In this document: positions 18,495 through 26,760 of the stretch, one piece after another
Numbering within the stretch: position 1 is the first letter of the stretch
Layout: every line of letters begins with the position of its first letter
Source of the DNA: a virus
Length of the DNA stretch: 28,841 bases
Strand: one strand, 5' to 3'
Virus record (IMG/VR): IMGVR_UViG_3300031673_000354
Coordinates: 1 to 28,841 of that record
Translations under genes and position numbers: made by a program
The notes under the pieces: generated by a model
What the model saw: only the letters and a program-made list of their open reading frames with translations
Databases searched by the model: none
Told to the model about the DNA's origin: nothing

Positions 18495-19997
18495 TTAAAT
18501 AGTAGCCATGTCATATATTTCAGATGAAAAGTCAAAGTCCTTGTCAATGGCCATCGTGGTAACATCCACCTGGTCGTCGTGCTTGGTGTTGGAAAACATT
18601 TTTAATTCATAAAGATAGTCATTTACCCAGGATCCTCCCTCAAGCAGGAACACCCTACCCGATTCCATGTAAGGGGAACACTTCTCTACCCTGGCCTCCT
18701 TGCTTATCTCCGGGGCCTTATCAATTATAATATTTAATTTGGTATTTGCCTTTACCATCTGCGCCACTGATCTGCCGGAGGCATTAGGTTCAATCCATAT
18801 ACGGGAAGTTTCCTTATATCCATTTCGATATACAAATTCAGGTATGAAACGTAAAAGATCAGGCATTTCCATCCTTACCACAGCCACCTCCCGGACATAC
18901 ATGCAATTAAAGATCCTGCAGAAGGCCAGAATTGCAGTAGGATCATTAATATCCTTGTCAGTATATGCTCCATCTATTGTAAAATCCCAAATGATTTCCT
19001 TGTCATGATCATAGGCCCGGTGTTCCAGGTCACTAAGTAAAAACCTCCCGAACCATTTTTCCTTAATACGGTTCCCTTCCTTCGGGGCCGGGACCTGTTG
19101 ATACAGGGAATTGAATACCTTTTCTGAAATTTTCTTCACAGCCAGGATTCTCTTTGCTGAGTGTCGTTCTTCCCATAGGGCCTCACCCTCATAGCGAGGA
19201 TCATGTTGATTAGGGGGGCCTTCTTTTATAGCTGGGAAAATAATCGTTTCCCAGCGTTCTTCGCTTTCATCCTGAATCTTCTCTATTCTACCGGCCAGGT
19301 CATCATCATGCCACCTGGTCATTGTGAATGCAATTTTACTCTCATTGTGTAGCCTGGTTTTAAGGACGTGAGTGTACCACTCCCATACTTTATCCCGGTA
19401 AACTTCACTGTAGGCCTGATCAGCGTCCTTTACGGGGTCATCTATTATCCCGAAGTCCACTGGCCTACCTGTAAGGCCTGACCCCACACCTACACTCACA
19501 AGCCCTCCTAAGGCCTCATGCATTTCAAATGCACTGGCCGTCCTGGTCACTGACCGGAAACTGTCTGTATCAATAGTGTCCATGCCGGCAAGTATGCTCC
19601 TTGGAAATATGGCCCGGTAACGTTCACTGTCAATTATTCTTTGAGTTTCACGGTTAAATTGCCTGGCCAGGGATTGAGCATAGGAGGCCACCGTCATTTT
19701 GGTATCAGGATCCAGACCCAGGAGAAAGGCTGGGAGCATCCTGGATACAATTTCAGATTTTCCGTGTTGCGGGGGTGTAAAGATCATCAACCTGTAAAAA
19801 TCTCCACGGATCAATGCATCTATTTTCTCACAGATAACCTTATGAAACCATTGAGCGCGATATGCCAGCCCCGGTTTCATGTACTGGATAAACTCAATCA
19901 GATATTTCCTCGCGATCTTCCTCTCGTAAGCCTTCCAGTTTTCGACCAATTTCAACGATGGTTCTAATGTCCTCATCTGGTAAAATTTCAAGTTCAT
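18495..19997 (-). CDS. terL: Terminase large subunit
   Basis: A 500-residue packaging motor. The N-terminal ATPase has Walker A TPPQHGKS (74-81), Walker B FGIIDDP (182-188) and the coupling motif TMTRWHDDDL (225-234). The C-terminal RNase H-like nuclease has acidic residues in DGAYTDKD (D342), WIEPNASG (E403) and KHDDQVDVT (D474/D475). Motor, nuclease and linker are all intact. The annotated ATG at 19997 overlaps the small terminase gene by 104 bases, which is a lot; other ATG starts are at 19976 and 19880. The conserved-looking segment before Walker A (LIEFIQYMKPGLAYRAQWFHKVI) favours one of the upstream starts. It should cut concatemeric DNA and pump it into proheads through the portal. Confidence 0.95.
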   Translation of the reverse strand: MNLKFYQMRTLEPSLKLVENWKAYERKIARKYLIEFIQYMKPGLAYRAQWFHKVICEKIDALIRGDFYRLMIFTPPQHGKSEIVSRMLPAFLLGLDPDTKMTVASYAQSLARQFNRETQRIIDSERYRAIFPRSILAGMDTIDTDSFRSVTRTASAFEMHEALGGLVSVGVGSGLTGRPVDFGIIDDPVKDADQAYSEVYRDKVWEWYTHVLKTRLHNESKIAFTMTRWHDDDLAGRIEKIQDESEERWETIIFPAIKEGPPNQHDPRYEGEALWEERHSAKRILAVKKISEKVFNSLYQQVPAPKEGNRIKEKWFGRFLLSDLEHRAYDHDKEIIWDFTIDGAYTDKDINDPTAILAFCRIFNCMYVREVAVVRMEMPDLLRFIPEFVYRNGYKETSRIWIEPNASGRSVAQMVKANTKLNIIIDKAPEISKEARVEKCSPYMESGRVFLLEGGSWVNDYLYELKMFSNTKHDDQVDVTTMAIDKDFDFSSEIYDMATI

Positions 19998-20442
19998 CTA
20001 AATCATCATCCTCTACCGGTGGAGTATGCTCAATATAGAACCGGTCCTTCCATCCTGCCCGTGTCCGGAGCCAGAACTTTTGAGCCTCAATAGATCCCCG
20101 CTGTACTACCTGTTCATAGAACTTTGGTTCACCGGTTCCTGGATCTATAACTTGGTTGCCGTCAGCATCTATCAATGGTATTTGCTTGACCACCGGCTTG
20201 CAAGATTCAAACAGCCAATTACTGACAGCAACATTCGCAAGAAGGACACCCTGTCTATAAAGTGCATAAACCTCAGGATCTCTGCGGAGAATATTATAAA
20301 AGGCGGAACGCGAAATACCCAGTAACTCAGCGAGATGCTTTGTCGGAACTCCATTCCTGGCATAGTACAATACAAGTTGCTTCTGCCTCTCATCGAGTTC
20401 GACGGGGGGCCTGCCTCCTTTGCCTTTTTCACCTTTAGACAT
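19894..20442 (-). CDS. terS: Terminase small subunit
   Basis: This 182-residue protein lies directly before terL. Its opening is basic (GEKGKGGRPPVELDERQ). A helix-turn-helix follows, VPTKHLAELLGISRSAFYNILRRDPEV (residues ~32-58), which should recognise the packaging site. The middle is helical with RGSIEAQKFWLRTRAGWKD (~116-134), the oligomerisation/core part, and the C-terminus is strongly acidic (DDDLDELEILPDEDI), typical of the large-subunit-interacting end. The 'RGs.eAqkfwLr.r.gWkd' pattern is characteristic of phage small terminases. Confidence is high from motif plus neighbour. Confidence 0.88.
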   Translation of the reverse strand: MSKGEKGKGGRPPVELDERQKQLVLYYARNGVPTKHLAELLGISRSAFYNILRRDPEVYALYRQGVLLANVAVSNWLFESCKPVVKQIPLIDADGNQVIDPGTGEPKFYEQVVQRGSIEAQKFWLRTRAGWKDRFYIEHTPPVEDDDLDELEILPDEDIRTIVEIGRKLEGLREEDREEISD

Positions 20443-20445
20443 AAT

Positions 20446-21540
20446 TTATGGACGCTCCATTACTTCTTTAGCAAGGGAGTGTTTACCCGAGATATGCATC
20501 TGACATGACCTGGTAAGTCTGTTCTTTGGATCACCGGCCACCAGGATCTGATACATCATTTTATATGCAACGGGATCCTCCCATAGTATTGTTCTGAGTA
20601 AAAACTTAGCATTATAAAAACCAGGGAATGAGTCAGGGTGTTGAATTGCTCTCGAAAATTCCTTTTTGAACTTACCGATATAGTCATCCTCCTTTTTGAA
20701 TTTCTTATTTTGCTTAGTTGACCGGAACATATCAGTTTCAAAGTAGAGGGCTGCCAGTTCAACGTTAGGTTCACGCTTGAGAATAGATTCATACAGGCCT
20801 GGGTAGAATTCAAACACCTTGGGTAGGCTCCGTATTGTATCGATGCTGAAGAACTGGCTTATACGTAACGCCTCACCGGACACCCCTACCTTATACAGGT
20901 ACATATAAGCGTCAGGGATGGGCACTTGGTACTTCTTTATATACAACCACACGTCTTTTAACTTCCAATCATAAATAGGATAAAGCACCTTCGGGGTGTT
21001 CTTGACAATCTTACTGAATGCAGATAACCGCTGGACAGATTCATTGGCCCGTATTCCTATAATATTGTAATACTTTCCAAAGGCCCTGTCTGACCAGGTC
21101 TGGTAATTCATACCGAGTTTAAAGTCCCTGTGATAGTTTAATGCAAATTCCGGTTTGGGCCTACACCAGACTGATTTCTTCCTGGCATCCCAACAGATGA
21201 AGGTTTCATCACTGGTTAGCTGGTTGAGGCAATTGTAATGCTTGAATTCCAGGCACCACCAGTAAAACTTCACCCCCAATTTCAAATACTCATTTCTCTC
21301 CTGTAGGACCACTCTCTCAACGCAAGGGTAAATAGCTTCCTCGTCGAAGAAGTTCACAAGCAGTTTACTTCGATCAATAAGCCCCTCATTGATCAGGCCC
21401 CTGATCATGTGACTGACCACCGCTGAGTCCTTCCCTCCGGAGTATGAAAAGAAAAGTACGGGGTAGTCCTGGAAGAACTTTATAAGCCTTTTCCTGGCTG
21501 CTGTAAAAACATTTATTTTTAAGTAAACCTGACGTATCAT
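20446..21540 (-). CDS. PAPS-reductase-like PP-loop protein (IbrA-like)
   Basis: A 364-residue protein whose PP-loop SYSGGKDSAVVSHM starts at residue 32 and binds ATP as in the PAPS reductase/adenine nucleotide alpha-hydrolase family. Aromatic Cys motifs follow (FYWWCLEFKHYNCLN and CWDARKKSVWCRP), then GIRANESVQRLSAF, which corresponds to the 'G.Ra.ES..R' signature, and YPIYDWKLKDVW, the 'PI.dW...dvw' signature. The long C-terminal region after residue 230 resembles the DUF3440-type extension of IbrA. The gene follows a ParB-like gene with an ATGA overlap, the classical IbrB-IbrA order. It is not expected to make sulfite for assimilation; a DNA or nucleotide sulfur or adenylation chemistry is possible. 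The substrate is unknown. Confidence 0.85.
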   Translation of the reverse strand: MIRQVYLKINVFTAARKRLIKFFQDYPVLFFSYSGGKDSAVVSHMIRGLINEGLIDRSKLLVNFFDEEAIYPCVERVVLQERNEYLKLGVKFYWWCLEFKHYNCLNQLTSDETFICWDARKKSVWCRPKPEFALNYHRDFKLGMNYQTWSDRAFGKYYNIIGIRANESVQRLSAFSKIVKNTPKVLYPIYDWKLKDVWLYIKKYQVPIPDAYMYLYKVGVSGEALRISQFFSIDTIRSLPKVFEFYPGLYESILKREPNVELAALYFETDMFRSTKQNKKFKKEDDYIGKFKKEFSRAIQHPDSFPGFYNAKFLLRTILWEDPVAYKMMYQILVAGDPKNRLTRSCQMHISGKHSLAKEVMERP

Positions 21541-22067
21541 GACGTTTGCCTGGTGTTCGTTATCTTCCTCGCCCGGGAGGGGATCTTCTCACCCTTAAGC
21601 ATGATATTGAGAAATGCCTCCCTGTCCATTTTTGTAAGCCGGTACACTTCTTCAGGGCGCATCCCCAGGTGGTTGCTGATCTCTTTCACGGTCTTACCGT
21701 CCTTCAATAGCCCCTGGACTATCCGCTCCATAGGTTCCAGTAGGTGAGTGCCTCGGGCCCGGTTGAATGTTATGGTCCCATAAACATCCTTGGCCTTATC
21801 TTCATGCTGGACAATAACTATAGGTACCTTGTTCCCCAGGAGTGTTTTTAGGGGATCTCTCCCTGCTATCAGCCACCGGTGAAAACCATCAATGATTGTC
21901 ATGTCCTGTCTTACCACCAGGGGAAAACAAAAGCCGTTACTGAGGATGGACTTCTCAAGTAATTCAAGGTTTCTTTCCAGTACCTTATTAGGATTGTAAT
22001 CATTTGCTTTGAGGGTATCCCTATCAACAAATTGAATATTCTTTAAGGGGGTAAATAGATCCTTCAT
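21537..22067 (-). CDS. ParB/sulfiredoxin-fold protein (IbrB-like)
   Basis: This 176-residue protein has a ParB N-terminal-type domain: LKANDYNPNKVLERNLELLEKSILSNGFCFPLVV, the core IIDGFHRWLIAG (ParB box II-like) and PIVIV, then FNRARGTHLLEPM and a helical end with ILKDGKTVKEISNHLGMRPEEVYRL, a small HTH. The 'FNraRGtH..epM' element is typical of the IbrB/ParB-Srx group found next to PAPS-reductase-like proteins in phages. It is bracketed by ATGA overlaps with a second ParB-like gene and the PP-loop gene, so the three are almost certainly co-translated. The fold class can hydrolyse phosphodiester or ATP bonds; activity here is unknown. Confidence 0.85.
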   Translation of the reverse strand: MKDLFTPLKNIQFVDRDTLKANDYNPNKVLERNLELLEKSILSNGFCFPLVVRQDMTIIDGFHRWLIAGRDPLKTLLGNKVPIVIVQHEDKAKDVYGTITFNRARGTHLLEPMERIVQGLLKDGKTVKEISNHLGMRPEEVYRLTKMDREAFLNIMLKGEKIPSRARKITNTRQTS

Positions 22068-22639
22068 ATCTCAAATCGGTTTTTGCAGTATGGGCATTCA
22101 ATCTCTTTATATACTTTTCCCTTCTCAGGGTTAGTGTCCTGGTCAATCTGCCCGACCACTCCTGGACCCTGGCTGTTAAGCCCGAGGCCATTCATGTCAG
22201 CCTGGAGATCCACCCCGTAATTGTCCCTGGTGAGTTCATTTATTACAGAGTCAATATAATCCTGGGAAAAGCCTGGTATGTCCAGGGTGGCTGCCTGTTT
22301 TATTATCGCCTCAAGGTCAGGCATATGGATGGTACTCATTTCCTGGATACGGTTATCAGCAAGGAGCAATACCTTCTTTTCAATCTCAGACATACCGGAT
22401 ATCATATTGATCTTAGCCTCCTTCATACCGGCAAGTTCCAGGGATCTCTTTTTCCCATGACCTGAAAGGATTAGGTAATTTTCATCAGTAATAATACGTA
22501 GGTACTGGCCGAACCGTTTCATGTTCTCAGCCATAGCCCGGATCTGAGGCTCCGGATGTTTGTTTGGGTTACCGGGGAATTCCTTGAGTTCTGAGACAGG
22601 AACTATTATCTCCTTGTGGGAGAATTTCTTTTTTGCCAT
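22064..22639 (-). CDS. ParB-like protein with C-terminal CxxC
   Basis: I place the start at the ATG at 22639 (MAKKKFSHKEIIV), because the upstream ATG at 22660 lies within the loop of a perfect hairpin. The 191-residue product has a ParB N-terminal domain: IIVPVSELKEFPGNPNKHPEPQIRAMAENMKRFGQ, then LILSGHGKKRSLELAG (box II-like), MSEIEKKVLLLADNR. The extra C-terminal part ends with IECPYCKNRFEI, half of a zinc-ribbon-like CxxC motif. In other phages such ParB domains are fused to DNA methylases; here no methylase is visible and the protein stops soon after the Cys pair. The IbrB-like gene starts inside its stop codon. Confidence 0.85.
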   Translation of the reverse strand: MAKKKFSHKEIIVPVSELKEFPGNPNKHPEPQIRAMAENMKRFGQYLRIITDENYLILSGHGKKRSLELAGMKEAKINMISGMSEIEKKVLLLADNRIQEMSTIHMPDLEAIIKQAATLDIPGFSQDYIDSVINELTRDNYGVDLQADMNGLGLNSQGPGVVGQIDQDTNPEKGKVYKEIECPYCKNRFEI

Positions 22640-22648
22640 AGTAGTTAA

Positions 22649-22669
22649 GAGGGGGCGCATGGCCCCCTC
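22649..22669 (-). terminator. Perfect GC-rich hairpin after the transport cassette
   Basis: An 8-bp perfect inverted repeat, GAGGGGGC / GCCCCCTC, with a 5-base loop lies between the stop of the barrel gene (22676) and the ParB start (22639). On the transcribed strand it is followed by TTAACTACT, so there is no real U tract. It is either a weak terminator or a structure separating the transport cassette from the ParB operon. It shares its GAGGGGG stem with the hairpin at 4361-4392. Confidence 0.5.
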
Positions 22670-22675
22670 AGAATA

Positions 22676-23293
22676 TTAATTAAAATGAAATGCGACGTTC
22701 AATCCAAACACCCTGTTGGTAAAATCATATTTCATCTGCAACCAGTTGGTTACATCTTCACCCTTATTGAACATCAACCTGAAATTTGTTATAAACCCCT
22801 CCTGCCCATTACCTATCACCCGGTACCCGGCATTGAGTACAATAAGGCTTTTATACTTATATCCGGCAAGGAACTGAAGTTGATCCCCGTCCAGCCACCC
22901 GGCATCCTGTTTCCATATATTTGACCAGGTGAAATCTACCATAAAATTATTTGGTGCCTTCCATGTTCCGGAGTACGTCTGGTAGAATTTCTTGCTGAAT
23001 GTATTATAGCCTACCCGGTGAAGAAACCAGAACTGCTTTTTGTAGTTCAGATTAGTCCAGAGCATAGTGGAAAACTGCTTGTTGTGCCAAGTGTACCAAG
23101 TGACACCCGTAAGGGACAGCCAGGGGGTAGCGTTGGGTGCAACCTTATATCCAGCAAAACTGAAGGTCGTACCGTTAGAGTTTGCACCGGTCCAGAACCG
23201 GTACTTCATAGGTTGTGTTATCCCATCATAAACCTGGGCATTAACGGCCAGGCTCACCAAGAGGATAGTGGAGATAATGATTAGTTTTTTCAT
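22676..23293 (-). CDS. Secreted beta-barrel-like outer membrane protein
   Basis: This 205-residue protein begins with a clean Sec signal peptide, MKKLIIISTILLVSLAVNA, with likely cleavage before Q20. The rest is a succession of amphipathic aromatic strands with turns (WYTWHNKQFSTMLWTNLNY, KQFWFLHRVGYNTF, FMVDFTWSNIW, LQFLAGYKYKSLIVLNAGYRV) and ends in aromatic FGLNVAFHFN, fitting an eight- to ten-stranded outer membrane barrel. It overlaps the symporter gene by ATGA, so the two are one unit. In a phage it could serve uptake, receptor masking or exclusion. Signal peptide and barrel character are seen directly; function is unknown. Confidence 0.75.
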   Translation of the reverse strand: MKKLIIISTILLVSLAVNAQVYDGITQPMKYRFWTGANSNGTTFSFAGYKVAPNATPWLSLTGVTWYTWHNKQFSTMLWTNLNYKKQFWFLHRVGYNTFSKKFYQTYSGTWKAPNNFMVDFTWSNIWKQDAGWLDGDQLQFLAGYKYKSLIVLNAGYRVIGNGQEGFITNFRLMFNKGEDVTNWLQMKYDFTNRVFGLNVAFHFN

Positions 23294-24702
23294 GTTTTAA
23301 ATTTTAGTCGTGATATAATTCCTGAGGCCAACAGGGTTGTAAATGTACCGGCCAGTATCCAGGGAAGATGATTGCCAAATTTGCCAATGGCAAACATCGG
23401 TACCCCCAGGACTATTGAAATCAAAATGCCGTAAAATAAGCCCTTCTCACTCATCCTGATTTTTAAGATAGCGTAGATAGTCGGAAGGAGTACAGACGAT
23501 CTCAGAGTCCCGTAAAGTAGCCACAAGTACAAAATTTTGATACCTGGTATGTTGGCTATACATATTGCCAGGATAGTAACCAGTACCATTGCCATTCTGG
23601 CAATAACTACCGGCTTAACCTTCCTGTTAATATTTCTCTCCTGGATCCTCACGGCAATATCATGTCCAACCACTGAGGACACGGCACATATCACAGAATC
23701 ACAGGTTGATATCAGCCCGGAAAGGATCATAAACATGAAAAGCACAAGGATTAATCTACTTGGTGTGATCATCATAAGGCCTTGGACATTGGTTAACTGT
23801 GTATCCACATTCACAGCCCCGCTACCGGCATAAATAAATCCCAGGGTGGACAGAACTATGGGTACTATCCCAAAGATCCAGGAGGCATGAAGAAAACTTT
23901 TCTTGACATCCTTCTTCTTGATGGACCATACCCGCTGCCAGAACATTTGATCACCAAAGGGGCCGGAGAATAATCCCACCGTTGCCGGTATCCCAAAGGA
24001 AAGGAACACCAGCCACCCCGTTTTACCAAATAAATTATCAAAGGTTCCGCTCGATCCACCCAGGCCCTTAACCAGGTCACCGGAATGGCCCAATATCGGT
24101 GGAAGGATCAATACCAGTACTAAAATTATCCATGCCATTTGCCATAGGTCAGTCATTATACTGGCCTTTATACCCCTAAGGTATGTATAGACAAATGGGA
24201 TAACAGCCATTGCCAGGGTAGTCCAGAAAAACGGGATCCCTGTCAATTTATGCAGAATTGCTCCACCGGCTAACAATTGAACGGCAAAGGAGCAAATCTG
24301 TAAACCGAATGACTCCACCAGGTAGAGGTTATGAGTCCGGTTTGAGTAAGAAGTCCGGATATGATCCGAGAAGGTCCACCCCTCAGGAACCATGTTCCGC
24401 ATCCTGGTAGCAAAAAAACCGAATACTGCCAGGCAGAGAATGTTTGGAACCGTAAACCAGAACACCCCTGCAATCCCTTGCGTAAATGCCTTCTCAGACG
24501 CAATGAATAAAGCGGGTGCCCATATCCAGGTGGCTGCGATGGAGAAGGCTGCCGGCCATCCTGATACAGTGCGGTTCGCTACAAGAAAACTCAGCTTCGT
24601 GCGAATTTTGTCACGATAGCTGTACAGGTATGCTAAAACCATGACCATAGCAAAGTATGATACAATAATCAGCCATCCCTGCGAACTTGAAAAAACCTGC
24701 AT
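23290..24702 (-). CDS. Sodium:solute symporter family (SSS/SLC5-like) transporter
   Basis: This 470-residue, very hydrophobic protein has about 12-13 predicted membrane helices, starting with GWLIIVSYFAMVMVLAYLY. The helix-1/2 region TVSGWPAAFSIAATWIWAPALFIASEKAF and the segment GIAGVFWFTVPN resemble SSS-family transporters of the Dur3/PutP type. The helix-8-type block LSGLISTCDSVICAVSSVVGHDI carries Ser/Thr residues where sodium is bound in this family. It should act in the inner membrane as an Na+-coupled importer. The substrate cannot be read from the sequence. The full length and intact core argue against decay. It is preceded by a candidate promoter and coupled to a barrel-like gene, and is very unusual next to phage terminase genes. 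Confidence 0.82.
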   Translation of the reverse strand: MQVFSSSQGWLIIVSYFAMVMVLAYLYSYRDKIRTKLSFLVANRTVSGWPAAFSIAATWIWAPALFIASEKAFTQGIAGVFWFTVPNILCLAVFGFFATRMRNMVPEGWTFSDHIRTSYSNRTHNLYLVESFGLQICSFAVQLLAGGAILHKLTGIPFFWTTLAMAVIPFVYTYLRGIKASIMTDLWQMAWIILVLVLILPPILGHSGDLVKGLGGSSGTFDNLFGKTGWLVFLSFGIPATVGLFSGPFGDQMFWQRVWSIKKKDVKKSFLHASWIFGIVPIVLSTLGFIYAGSGAVNVDTQLTNVQGLMMITPSRLILVLFMFMILSGLISTCDSVICAVSSVVGHDIAVRIQERNINRKVKPVVIARMAMVLVTILAICIANIPGIKILYLWLLYGTLRSSVLLPTIYAILKIRMSEKGLFYGILISIVLGVPMFAIGKFGNHLPWILAGTFTTLLASGIISRLKFKT

Positions 24703-24766
24703 AATTAAAATGGATTAGGTGAATAAAAACCGAAATCGCTTTTTAACGATCCCGGCATTGAATAAA

Positions 24767-24795
24767 CAAATATAATGAATTACAGGAAATTCAAA
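24767..24795 (-). promoter_or_regulatory. Candidate Bacteroidota promoter for transport cassette
   Basis: On the minus strand TTTG (24795-24792) is followed after 17 bases by TATATTTG (24774-24767), an exact match to the Bacteroidota TAnnTTTG -7 box. It lies 65 bases before the symporter start, in the largest gap of this area (77 bases). The -33 element overlaps the end of the DUF1367-like gene. The match is by eye only. Confidence 0.45.
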
Positions 24796-26073: not shown

Positions 26074-26601
26074 TTAATTAAATCTGGCAAGTTGTCTGCC
26101 GTTAATTACGTTGTTTATAGTAACATAGTGTACATCATATTCCTTCGCAAGCGCAACCTGTGTTGCTCCGGACTCATATCTTTTCTTTATCGTCAATATA
26201 TCATTCAGCGTCAACTTAGAATTCTTAAATCCTATTTTTCTTTTCGTTTCTTCGGGGTGCTTCTTTCCTAAATGGGGCTTAATACCCAAAACCTCAACCA
26301 TATGTTTACTGTTTTCAGAATGAGTACACCACTCCAAATTCTCAATCTTATTATTTAGTTTATTCCCATCTTTATGATTAATACATTGTTTATTATCTGG
26401 GTTAGGCACAAAAGCTAATGCAACAAGCCTGTGTACAGTTTTTAACTTCTTAATTCCATCTTTACTCAAGTTCACCACACAATAACCGATTCTTGTTGTT
26501 GCTATTTTTCTTATTCGTTGTCTTTTAAGGCTCTTTATTCTACCTAAATTTGACACAAGATAAAGTCCTTCATACCCCTTAATATTTTTCCAGGTTTCCA
26601 T
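26074..26601 (-). CDS. HNH homing endonuclease (NUMOD4-HNH)
   Basis: I start at the ATG at 26601, where the domain begins (METWKNIKGYEGLYLVSNLGRIKSL, NUMOD4-like). The in-frame upstream extension of 51 codons crosses a candidate promoter and does not look like this family. The 175-residue product has an HNH_3-like core at ~57-98 (VHRLVALAFVPNPDNKQCINHKDGNKLNN, then IENLEWCTHSEN) with the catalytic H and N residues intact. A C-terminal helix-turn-helix (LTIKKRYESGATQVALAKEYDVHYVTINNVING, ~137-169) follows. These are mobile, free-standing endonucleases common in phages. It should cut related genomes lacking it. It lies in the AT-rich island. Confidence 0.9.
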   Translation of the reverse strand: METWKNIKGYEGLYLVSNLGRIKSLKRQRIRKIATTRIGYCVVNLSKDGIKKLKTVHRLVALAFVPNPDNKQCINHKDGNKLNNKIENLEWCTHSENSKHMVEVLGIKPHLGKKHPEETKRKIGFKNSKLTLNDILTIKKRYESGATQVALAKEYDVHYVTINNVINGRQLARFN

Positions 26602-26729
26602 AATAAAAGAACCGGACTTAGGATGCTTAACGGTTGCAATGCAGAAACCGCTCCATACAGTTTCCTGCATGAAATCCATATCCGGTATTTTTTCAAATTG
26701 ATATTTGCATTGCATTTGATTAAGCACTG

Positions 26730-26760
26730 TAAATATAATAAAAATCACTGTCATTTCAAA
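26730..26760 (-). promoter_or_regulatory. Candidate promoter upstream of the HNH gene
   Basis: On the minus strand TTTG (26760-26757), 19 bases, then TATATTTA (26737-26730). The -7 element differs from TAnnTTTG only in the last base. It sits in a 171-base gap between two genes, inside the extension I reject as coding. The remainder of the gap (26602-26729) encodes an open but unrecognised stretch. Confidence 0.3.

Follow-up and report, generated by a model that had tools for sequence, protein, structure and literature searches.

The window analyzed here, a stretch of 28,841 nt taken from the IMG/VR virus record IMGVR_UViG_3300031673_000354 (positions 1 to 28,841), carries on its minus strand a gene for a transporter of the sodium:solute symporter family (SSF), followed by one for a predicted outer-membrane beta-barrel. 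These transport genes head a conserved module that also includes the genes for two ParB-like proteins (ParB1 and ParB2) and for a PP-loop enzyme of the PAPS-reductase family (PPL1), and that lies beside the terminase genes. The SSF and barrel proteins probably form an uptake arm that supplies the ParB/PP-loop enzymes with a solute; the barrel would be the outer-membrane gate in Bacteroidales hosts.

With an SSF alignment as the query, members of this particular SSF family were found to be encoded in at least 202 viral contig stretches. Gene neighborhoods were sampled from the best 80 matches to profiles derived from the window, and counts refer to distinct groups (<90% identical), genes within 6 kb and assignment by best hit; open reading frames (ORFs) were called mechanically. 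Among 54 distinct groups anchored on the SSF gene, PPL1 was present in 51, ParB1 in 50 and ParB2 in 48; 30 groups also have a second PP-loop protein that is absent from the window (PPL2), and 17 have the barrel. The genes occur in several orders, including SSF-[PPL2]-ParB1-PPL1-ParB2, ParB1-SSF-PPL1-ParB2 and SSF-barrel-[PPL2]-ParB1-ParB2-PPL1. Three of the exceptional SSF groups are internal deletions, in which the 5' part of the barrel gene is joined to the 3' part of the PPL1 gene and most of the module is gone. A fourth exception (L145, 935-6716) has its SSF gene overlapped by that of a different PP-loop/amidotransferase-like protein with an SGGIDS motif, and a second protein, with SGGLDS, is encoded further down; here the transporter may be paired with another kind of PP-loop protein. 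The deletions, in contigs L008 (same sequence in L009, L010, L013 and L015), L021 and L022, are three different events that removed PPL2-ParB1-ParB2 and left the SSF gene intact, and the L008 genotype recurs in five metagenome contigs.

A search anchored on ParB2 retrieved at least 568 contigs. A transporter gene is present in 55 of 64 distinct modules, specifying a full SSF in 25, a 330 aa mini-SSF in 27 and a solute-binding protein of the SsuA/NMT1 type in three; eight of the nine modules without one are cut by the contig end, and the ninth is a module remnant. The mini-SSF is classed as a divergent SSF relative on two grounds: a profile alignment with SSF (hhalign probability 96, E 4e-9), and a model with an APC/LeuT-type fold, whose top matches include CHT1, itself an SSF member (TMq 0.67). 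The solute-binding proteins match TIGR01728 of the SsuA/NMT1 family (E 4e-34, 5e-33 and 2e-27), and their genes lie directly before ParB1 (L206:900-1853, L222:2797-3789 and L224:3277-4308). Genes for an ABC permease or ATPase were not seen near these three, and the encoded proteins would have to partner with a host permease. Since the SsuA-type protein is unrelated to SSF or mini-SSF and occupies the same slot, the conserved trait appears to be solute uptake rather than any one protein.

A nutritional role that stands apart from the enzymes, in which the pair imports a nutrient that helps the lysogen or infected cell and the ParB/PP-loop genes are neighbors because both occupy a common hotspot for cargo ahead of the terminase genes, is unlikely on these data. 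SSF proteins are in general nutrient importers, several of the relatives reside in long contigs of Bacteroidales metagenome-assembled genomes (MAGs), an integrase scored above the cut-off in 4 of 13 contigs tested, and the SSF gene persists in the three contig groups whose ParB/PP-loop genes are deleted, all of which would suit such a role. A hotspot would, however, be expected to carry varied cargo, yet 48-51 of the 54 groups have the SSF gene together with ParB and PP-loop genes of the same families. The reshuffled gene orders, one of them with the SSF gene inside the module, and the presence of a transporter in nearly every ParB2 module with readable flanks also argue against a hotspot.

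The window SSF gene (23290..24702, minus strand) specifies a 470 aa predicted inner-membrane transporter with 14 hydrophobic segments (crude hydropathy). Membership of the SSF family is assigned by a full-length profile match (Pfam PF00474, profile positions 1-405 of 406, E 8.3e-21, 74.8 bits against a cut-off of 22.8), and the protein belongs to a phage-specific family, phrog_20720 (E 7e-103), labeled 'unknown function' in PHROG. Scores against the named equivalogs PutP, PanF and VC_2705 (53, 34 and 30.5 bits) fall well below the curated cut-offs of 515, 328 and 321 bits. The nearest solved structures by sequence are DUR3 urea-proton symporters (PDB 9j7c and 9vim; profile E 3.5e-31), which are nevertheless remote: they are about 700 aa long and have Ser-Ala where the window family has an invariant Ser-Thr in the motif GLxSTxDS, and the likeness does not imply a substrate. 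These two residues, S332 and T333, are invariant among 20 relatives, and we take them to be the Ser/Thr pair of the core-helix Na2 sodium site of PutP and vSGLT. The conserved Ser-Thr at this position, as opposed to Ser-Ala in DUR3, suggests that the transporter is probably coupled to sodium. A single named substrate was considered and none is claimed, as the similarity to DUR3, the replacement by an SsuA-type protein and the KdgM-like fold of the barrel (see below) do not converge on one solute.

The adjoining barrel gene (22676..23293, minus strand) overlaps the SSF gene via ATGA and encodes a protein of 205 aa, predicted to be a 12-stranded outer-membrane channel, of a family marked by the mature N-terminus QVYDGITQPTxxR. 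It begins with a signal-peptide-like sequence, MKKLIIISTILLVSLAVNA/Q (N-terminus read by eye). An AlphaFold2 model built from 16 relatives has 12 strands (pLDDT 84), and a Foldseek search with this model gave KdgM (PDB 4fqe) as the best match (E 2e-6, TMq 0.60), with NanC (PDB 2wjq) at E 3.5e-4. By prediction, then, the protein has the features of KdgM/NanC-type channels, namely a narrow, 12-stranded outer-membrane barrel and a signal peptide. It is not a member of that family by sequence, with no match in Pfam, PHROG or NCBIfam and none in PDB even at E 1, and the identity in the structural alignment is just 8-9%. Twelve conserved polar positions of the model face inward and none outward, a count that is partly circular as the inward face was picked by hydrophobicity. 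The ratio of nonsynonymous to synonymous substitutions (dN/dS) in close pairs is 0.05-0.08 for the barrel, compared with 0.03-0.055 for SSF and 0.014-0.04 for terminase, and the barrel is under purifying selection. Values for ParB1 were set aside, as ParB2 sequences had contaminated some of the pairs. The original prediction of a full-length Na+:solute symporter overlapping a signal-peptide-bearing, barrel-like protein is thus borne out by the Pfam match and the structural model.

Several observations tie the barrel to its SSF partner. The SSF tree covered 57 proteins, and the 17 that are accompanied by a barrel all fall on one side of a single branch (support 100/99), a pattern that fits one gain of the barrel gene with no later loss in the sample; by this distribution, the barrel is a lineage-specific addition to the module. 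Protein distances are more strongly correlated between SSF and barrel (Mantel r 0.90) than between SSF and the terminase large subunit, TerL (r 0.68). The two proteins are fused as a single ORF of 768-769 codons in L027 (10001-12307) and in the Prevotella MAG contig L037 (6297-8603); the linker is divergent and coiled-coil-like, a signal sequence lies inside the ORF, and the L027 fusion has CTG where the barrel normally has its ATG. This natural fusion is direct evidence of the two working together. The originally proposed pairing of an inner-membrane importer with an outer-membrane protein is strengthened by the comparisons and models, the two being inseparable in one clade, co-varying, and fused in two viruses. 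In one clade (L003, L004, L005 and L012), the SSF and barrel genes are separated by a small conserved ORF or a pair of them (about 90 and 104 aa). A lone barrel-family gene was seen in a Muribaculaceae contig (L040:2586-3230), where its neighbors are TPR and carbonic-anhydrase-like genes and neither an SSF gene nor a phage gene was recognized nearby; it is possibly a domesticated copy.

The locus is an authentic part of viral genomes. A second contig, L002, is identical to the window (100% over 13,717 bp), and numerous other viruses share its gene order, as do contigs of Bacteroidales MAGs that are up to 614 kb long. An assembly error that joined host DNA to the virus, raised in the original prediction as a way for it to fail, is excluded by the identical contig and the recurrent synteny. 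Searches for the pair in other viral contigs and in hosts gave 28 viral loci by SSF scan and 28 by an independent scan with the barrel alignment, on nearly identical contigs; the hosts are known solely for the MAG-borne and named cases. In the Bacteroidales MAG contigs the SSF gene lies upstream in 9 of 10 barrel loci (one as a fusion), and ParB, PP-loop and terminase genes follow downstream wherever the contig extends that far. No member of either family was found in 394 other Bacteroidia genomes, which counts against a host-derived gene pair; of two weak barrel matches there, inspection showed one to be an OmpA-like barrel and the other a YceI-like protein, both unrelated.

The enzyme genes follow downstream of the barrel gene. 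ParB1 (22064..22639, minus strand; phrog_620, 2.9e-28) is a ParB/Srx-like protein with a zinc-finger-like CPxC motif at its C-terminus; its profile matches ParB/Noc and sulfiredoxin structures, and most relatives end in CPxCG. The start was placed at about the ATG at 22639 by alignment with relatives, the listed ORF extending to 22660. ParB2 (21537..22067, minus strand; Pfam ParB_N, 2.1e-6; phrog_2159, 1.9e-57) resembles IbrB, and its alignment (mean identity 60%) contains invariant DGFHRW and NRARGxH motifs. PPL1 (20446..21540, minus strand; Pfam PAPS_reduct, 5.1e-9; phrog_2302, 4.5e-69) is an IbrA-like, PP-loop ATP-pyrophosphatase-like enzyme of the PAPS-reductase family with an intact SGGKDS; SGGKD and DEE are invariant and GDxKxR is conserved in the PPL1 alignment. 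In PPL1 and PPL2 alike, the PP-loop motif (SGGKDS or SAGKDS) is kept in nearly all aligned sequences.

The adjoining PAPS-reductase-family and ParB-like proteins (phrog_2302 and phrog_2159), whose relatives are annotated IbrA and IbrB, correspond to an IbrAB-type pair. The most similar module in a cultured virus is gp35-gp38 of Faecalibacterium phage FP_Taranis (NC_047914.1), with the order mini-SSF, ParB1, IbrA (PAPS-reductase-like), ParB2/IbrB, terminase small subunit (TerS), TerL. It shares the core of the window module but has the 330 aa mini-SSF in place of the full SSF, annotated solely as 'transporter membrane protein', and lacks a barrel; Faecalibacterium is a monoderm. More distant relatives of PPL1 and ParB2 (ParB2 about 36-37% identical) form IbrA/IbrB pairs in ECOR-9 (IbrAB), Streptococcus phage CHPC1148, Flavobacterium phage 23T and Escherichia phage PhiR5_2, which likewise combine a PAPS-reductase-family enzyme with a ParB-like protein but consist of two genes, have no transporter, and in the three records read are located away from terminase. 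In FP_Taranis, ParB2 is annotated as IbrB and PPL1 as IbrA, which are co-activators for the expression of prophage genes, and one might suppose that the ParB/PP-loop proteins regulate prophage genes in the manner of IbrAB and that the transporter imports a cue rather than a substrate. Such a sensing role seems improbable, as the catalytic motifs retained in both PP-loop proteins argue for chemistry, and the two-gene IbrAB relatives manage without a transporter.

Phosphorothioation systems (Dnd/Ssp) resemble the module in combining a PP-loop ATPase (DndC) with a ParB-superfamily protein (DndB) (PMC10853773), but partners equivalent to DndA, DndD and DndE were not seen in the module, which in turn adds a transporter. 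PADLOC returned only weak matches for the module proteins (BrxP and DndC, both for PPL1, and a type II methyltransferase profile), and membership of a known defense system was rejected. A Dnd/Ssp assignment was also discarded: the PPL1-DndC match covers a short stretch (E 0.002), and no other Dnd component was found among the tested proteins or in the neighborhood tables. Earlier papers have recorded IbrA/B or PAPS-reductase and ParB genes in phages (e.g., PMC4490671 and PMC10434257), and genes of PHROG 424 and 2302 occur together in a Clostridium clostridioforme prophage (PMC11318856). In the open-access literature (subscription papers and preprints being outside its scope), no account was found of phage ParB/PAPS-reductase modules linked to an SSF or any other transporter; one membrane-nuclease paper that mentions ParB was set aside because ParB is used there merely as a label. 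IbrAB-type pairs are already known, and their apparent link to a transporter was not found described in that literature.

The arrangement suggests the following pathway. The module, widespread in phages beside the terminase genes, combines a transporter with a pair of ParB/Srx-fold proteins and either one or two PP-loop enzymes of the PAPS-reductase family. KdgM and NanC serve dedicated uptake routes, and in Bacteroidales viruses the similarly folded channel may pass a small polar solute across the outer membrane, after which the SSF protein would drive it into the cytoplasm by an ion gradient, probably of sodium. There the PP-loop enzyme may spend ATP to activate a target, and it and the ParB-fold proteins may jointly use the imported solute. 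Phage nucleic acid or a nucleotide would be the likely target, as suggested by the position of the genes next to those for packaging and by analogy with other PP-loop/ParB systems. A more specific version, in which phages of several host groups have a dedicated import route (across two membranes in Bacteroidales) for a precursor, and the ParB/PP-loop enzymes are of a new class that joins this precursor to phage nucleic acid, giving an import-dependent DNA or RNA modification unlike any described, is put forward tentatively and is more doubtful than the uptake arm itself. Supply of a precursor for the neighboring PP-loop enzyme had been listed originally as one alternative among others, and is the one that the comparative data favor.

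Several points weigh against an uptake arm that feeds the enzymes. The sampling, with profiles derived from the window, is biased toward window-like modules. The IbrAB-like pairs of Streptococcus, Flavobacterium, Escherichia and Arthrobacter phages are not accompanied by a transporter, and in these lineages at least the enzymes can therefore function on their own. The virus vB_RanS_PJN03 has an intact ParB1-ParB2-PPL1-TerL arrangement with no SSF gene in the whole record and no match to a transporter profile in the module region, so a transporter is not absolutely required. The three types of transporter found in the slot need not carry the same solute, and the barrel is missing from modules outside the Bacteroidales, whose hosts may in part be Gram-negative.

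PAPS-reductase-like and ParB-like genes are common among the unexplained 'auxiliary' genes of phages, and a transporter that looks obligate, with non-homologous replacements in its slot, would imply that the enzyme chemistry consumes something from outside the cell, and would replace a vague annotation by a pathway that can be tested. A phage symporter with its own outer-membrane channel would, if true, be a rare case of a complete uptake route borne by a virus, and the cultured FP_Taranis opens the question to direct experiment. The remaining explanation, that SSF and barrel remodel the envelope to block superinfection or mask a receptor and that the module is a prophage fitness island, is the least probable: phages are known to carry exclusion proteins, both products are predicted envelope proteins and the barrel is lineage-specific, but superinfection exclusion and receptor masking, both named in the original prediction, found no positive support, the interchangeable occupants of the slot (SSF, mini-SSF and solute-binding protein) share transport and no surface shape, which argues against a primary role of this kind, and the constrained sites include GLxSTxDS and the polar positions facing the predicted lumen (a partly circular assignment), not surface loops only.

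Within the window, the genes run in the order SSF, barrel, ParB1, ParB2, PP-loop and TerS, with successive gaps of -4, +36, -4, -4 and +3 nt. TerS (19894..20442, minus strand; phrog_309, 7.8e-14) begins 3 nt past the PP-loop gene and is followed by TerL (18495..19997, minus strand; Terminase_6C/6N; phrog_38, 7.4e-96), which marks the conserved position of the module. The original prediction described the pair as a self-contained cassette, with a promoter in front and a hairpin behind. A Bacteroidetes-type promoter-like string, TTTG-N17-TATATTTG, does occur once in the window, at 24767..24795 (minus strand), but is suggestive only, with one found compared to 0.08 expected and 8 of 100 shuffled sequences holding one. 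Between it and the SSF start is a terminator-like hairpin with a T-run (24729..24756, minus strand; 12 pairs and TTTTTATTC), one of 11 such sites in the region against 7.2 expected, which may represent the end of the upstream NinB-like transcript or a leader element. The hairpin behind the pair, in the gap between the barrel and ParB1 genes (22649..22669, minus strand), is a perfect 8 bp GC stem as described (GAGGGGGC-CATGC-GCCCCCTC), but TTAACTACTATG comes directly after it, a T-run is lacking and the terminator scan does not list the site, which makes it unconvincing as a terminator. Given the weak flanking signals and the small gaps along the string, the SSF-barrel pair is better described as the head of a tight gene string than as an isolated cassette, and the idea of a moron or auxiliary metabolic gene set bounded by its own promoter and terminator is also at odds with the conserved ParB/PP-loop linkage.

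No known RNA elements or tRNA genes were found in the window. Two further minus-strand features were noted by eye: an ORF with the look of a NUMOD4/HNH homing endonuclease (26074-26754) and, among the head and tail genes, a SAM-methyltransferase-like ORF beside one resembling DUF115-type glycosyltransferases (1547-2615).

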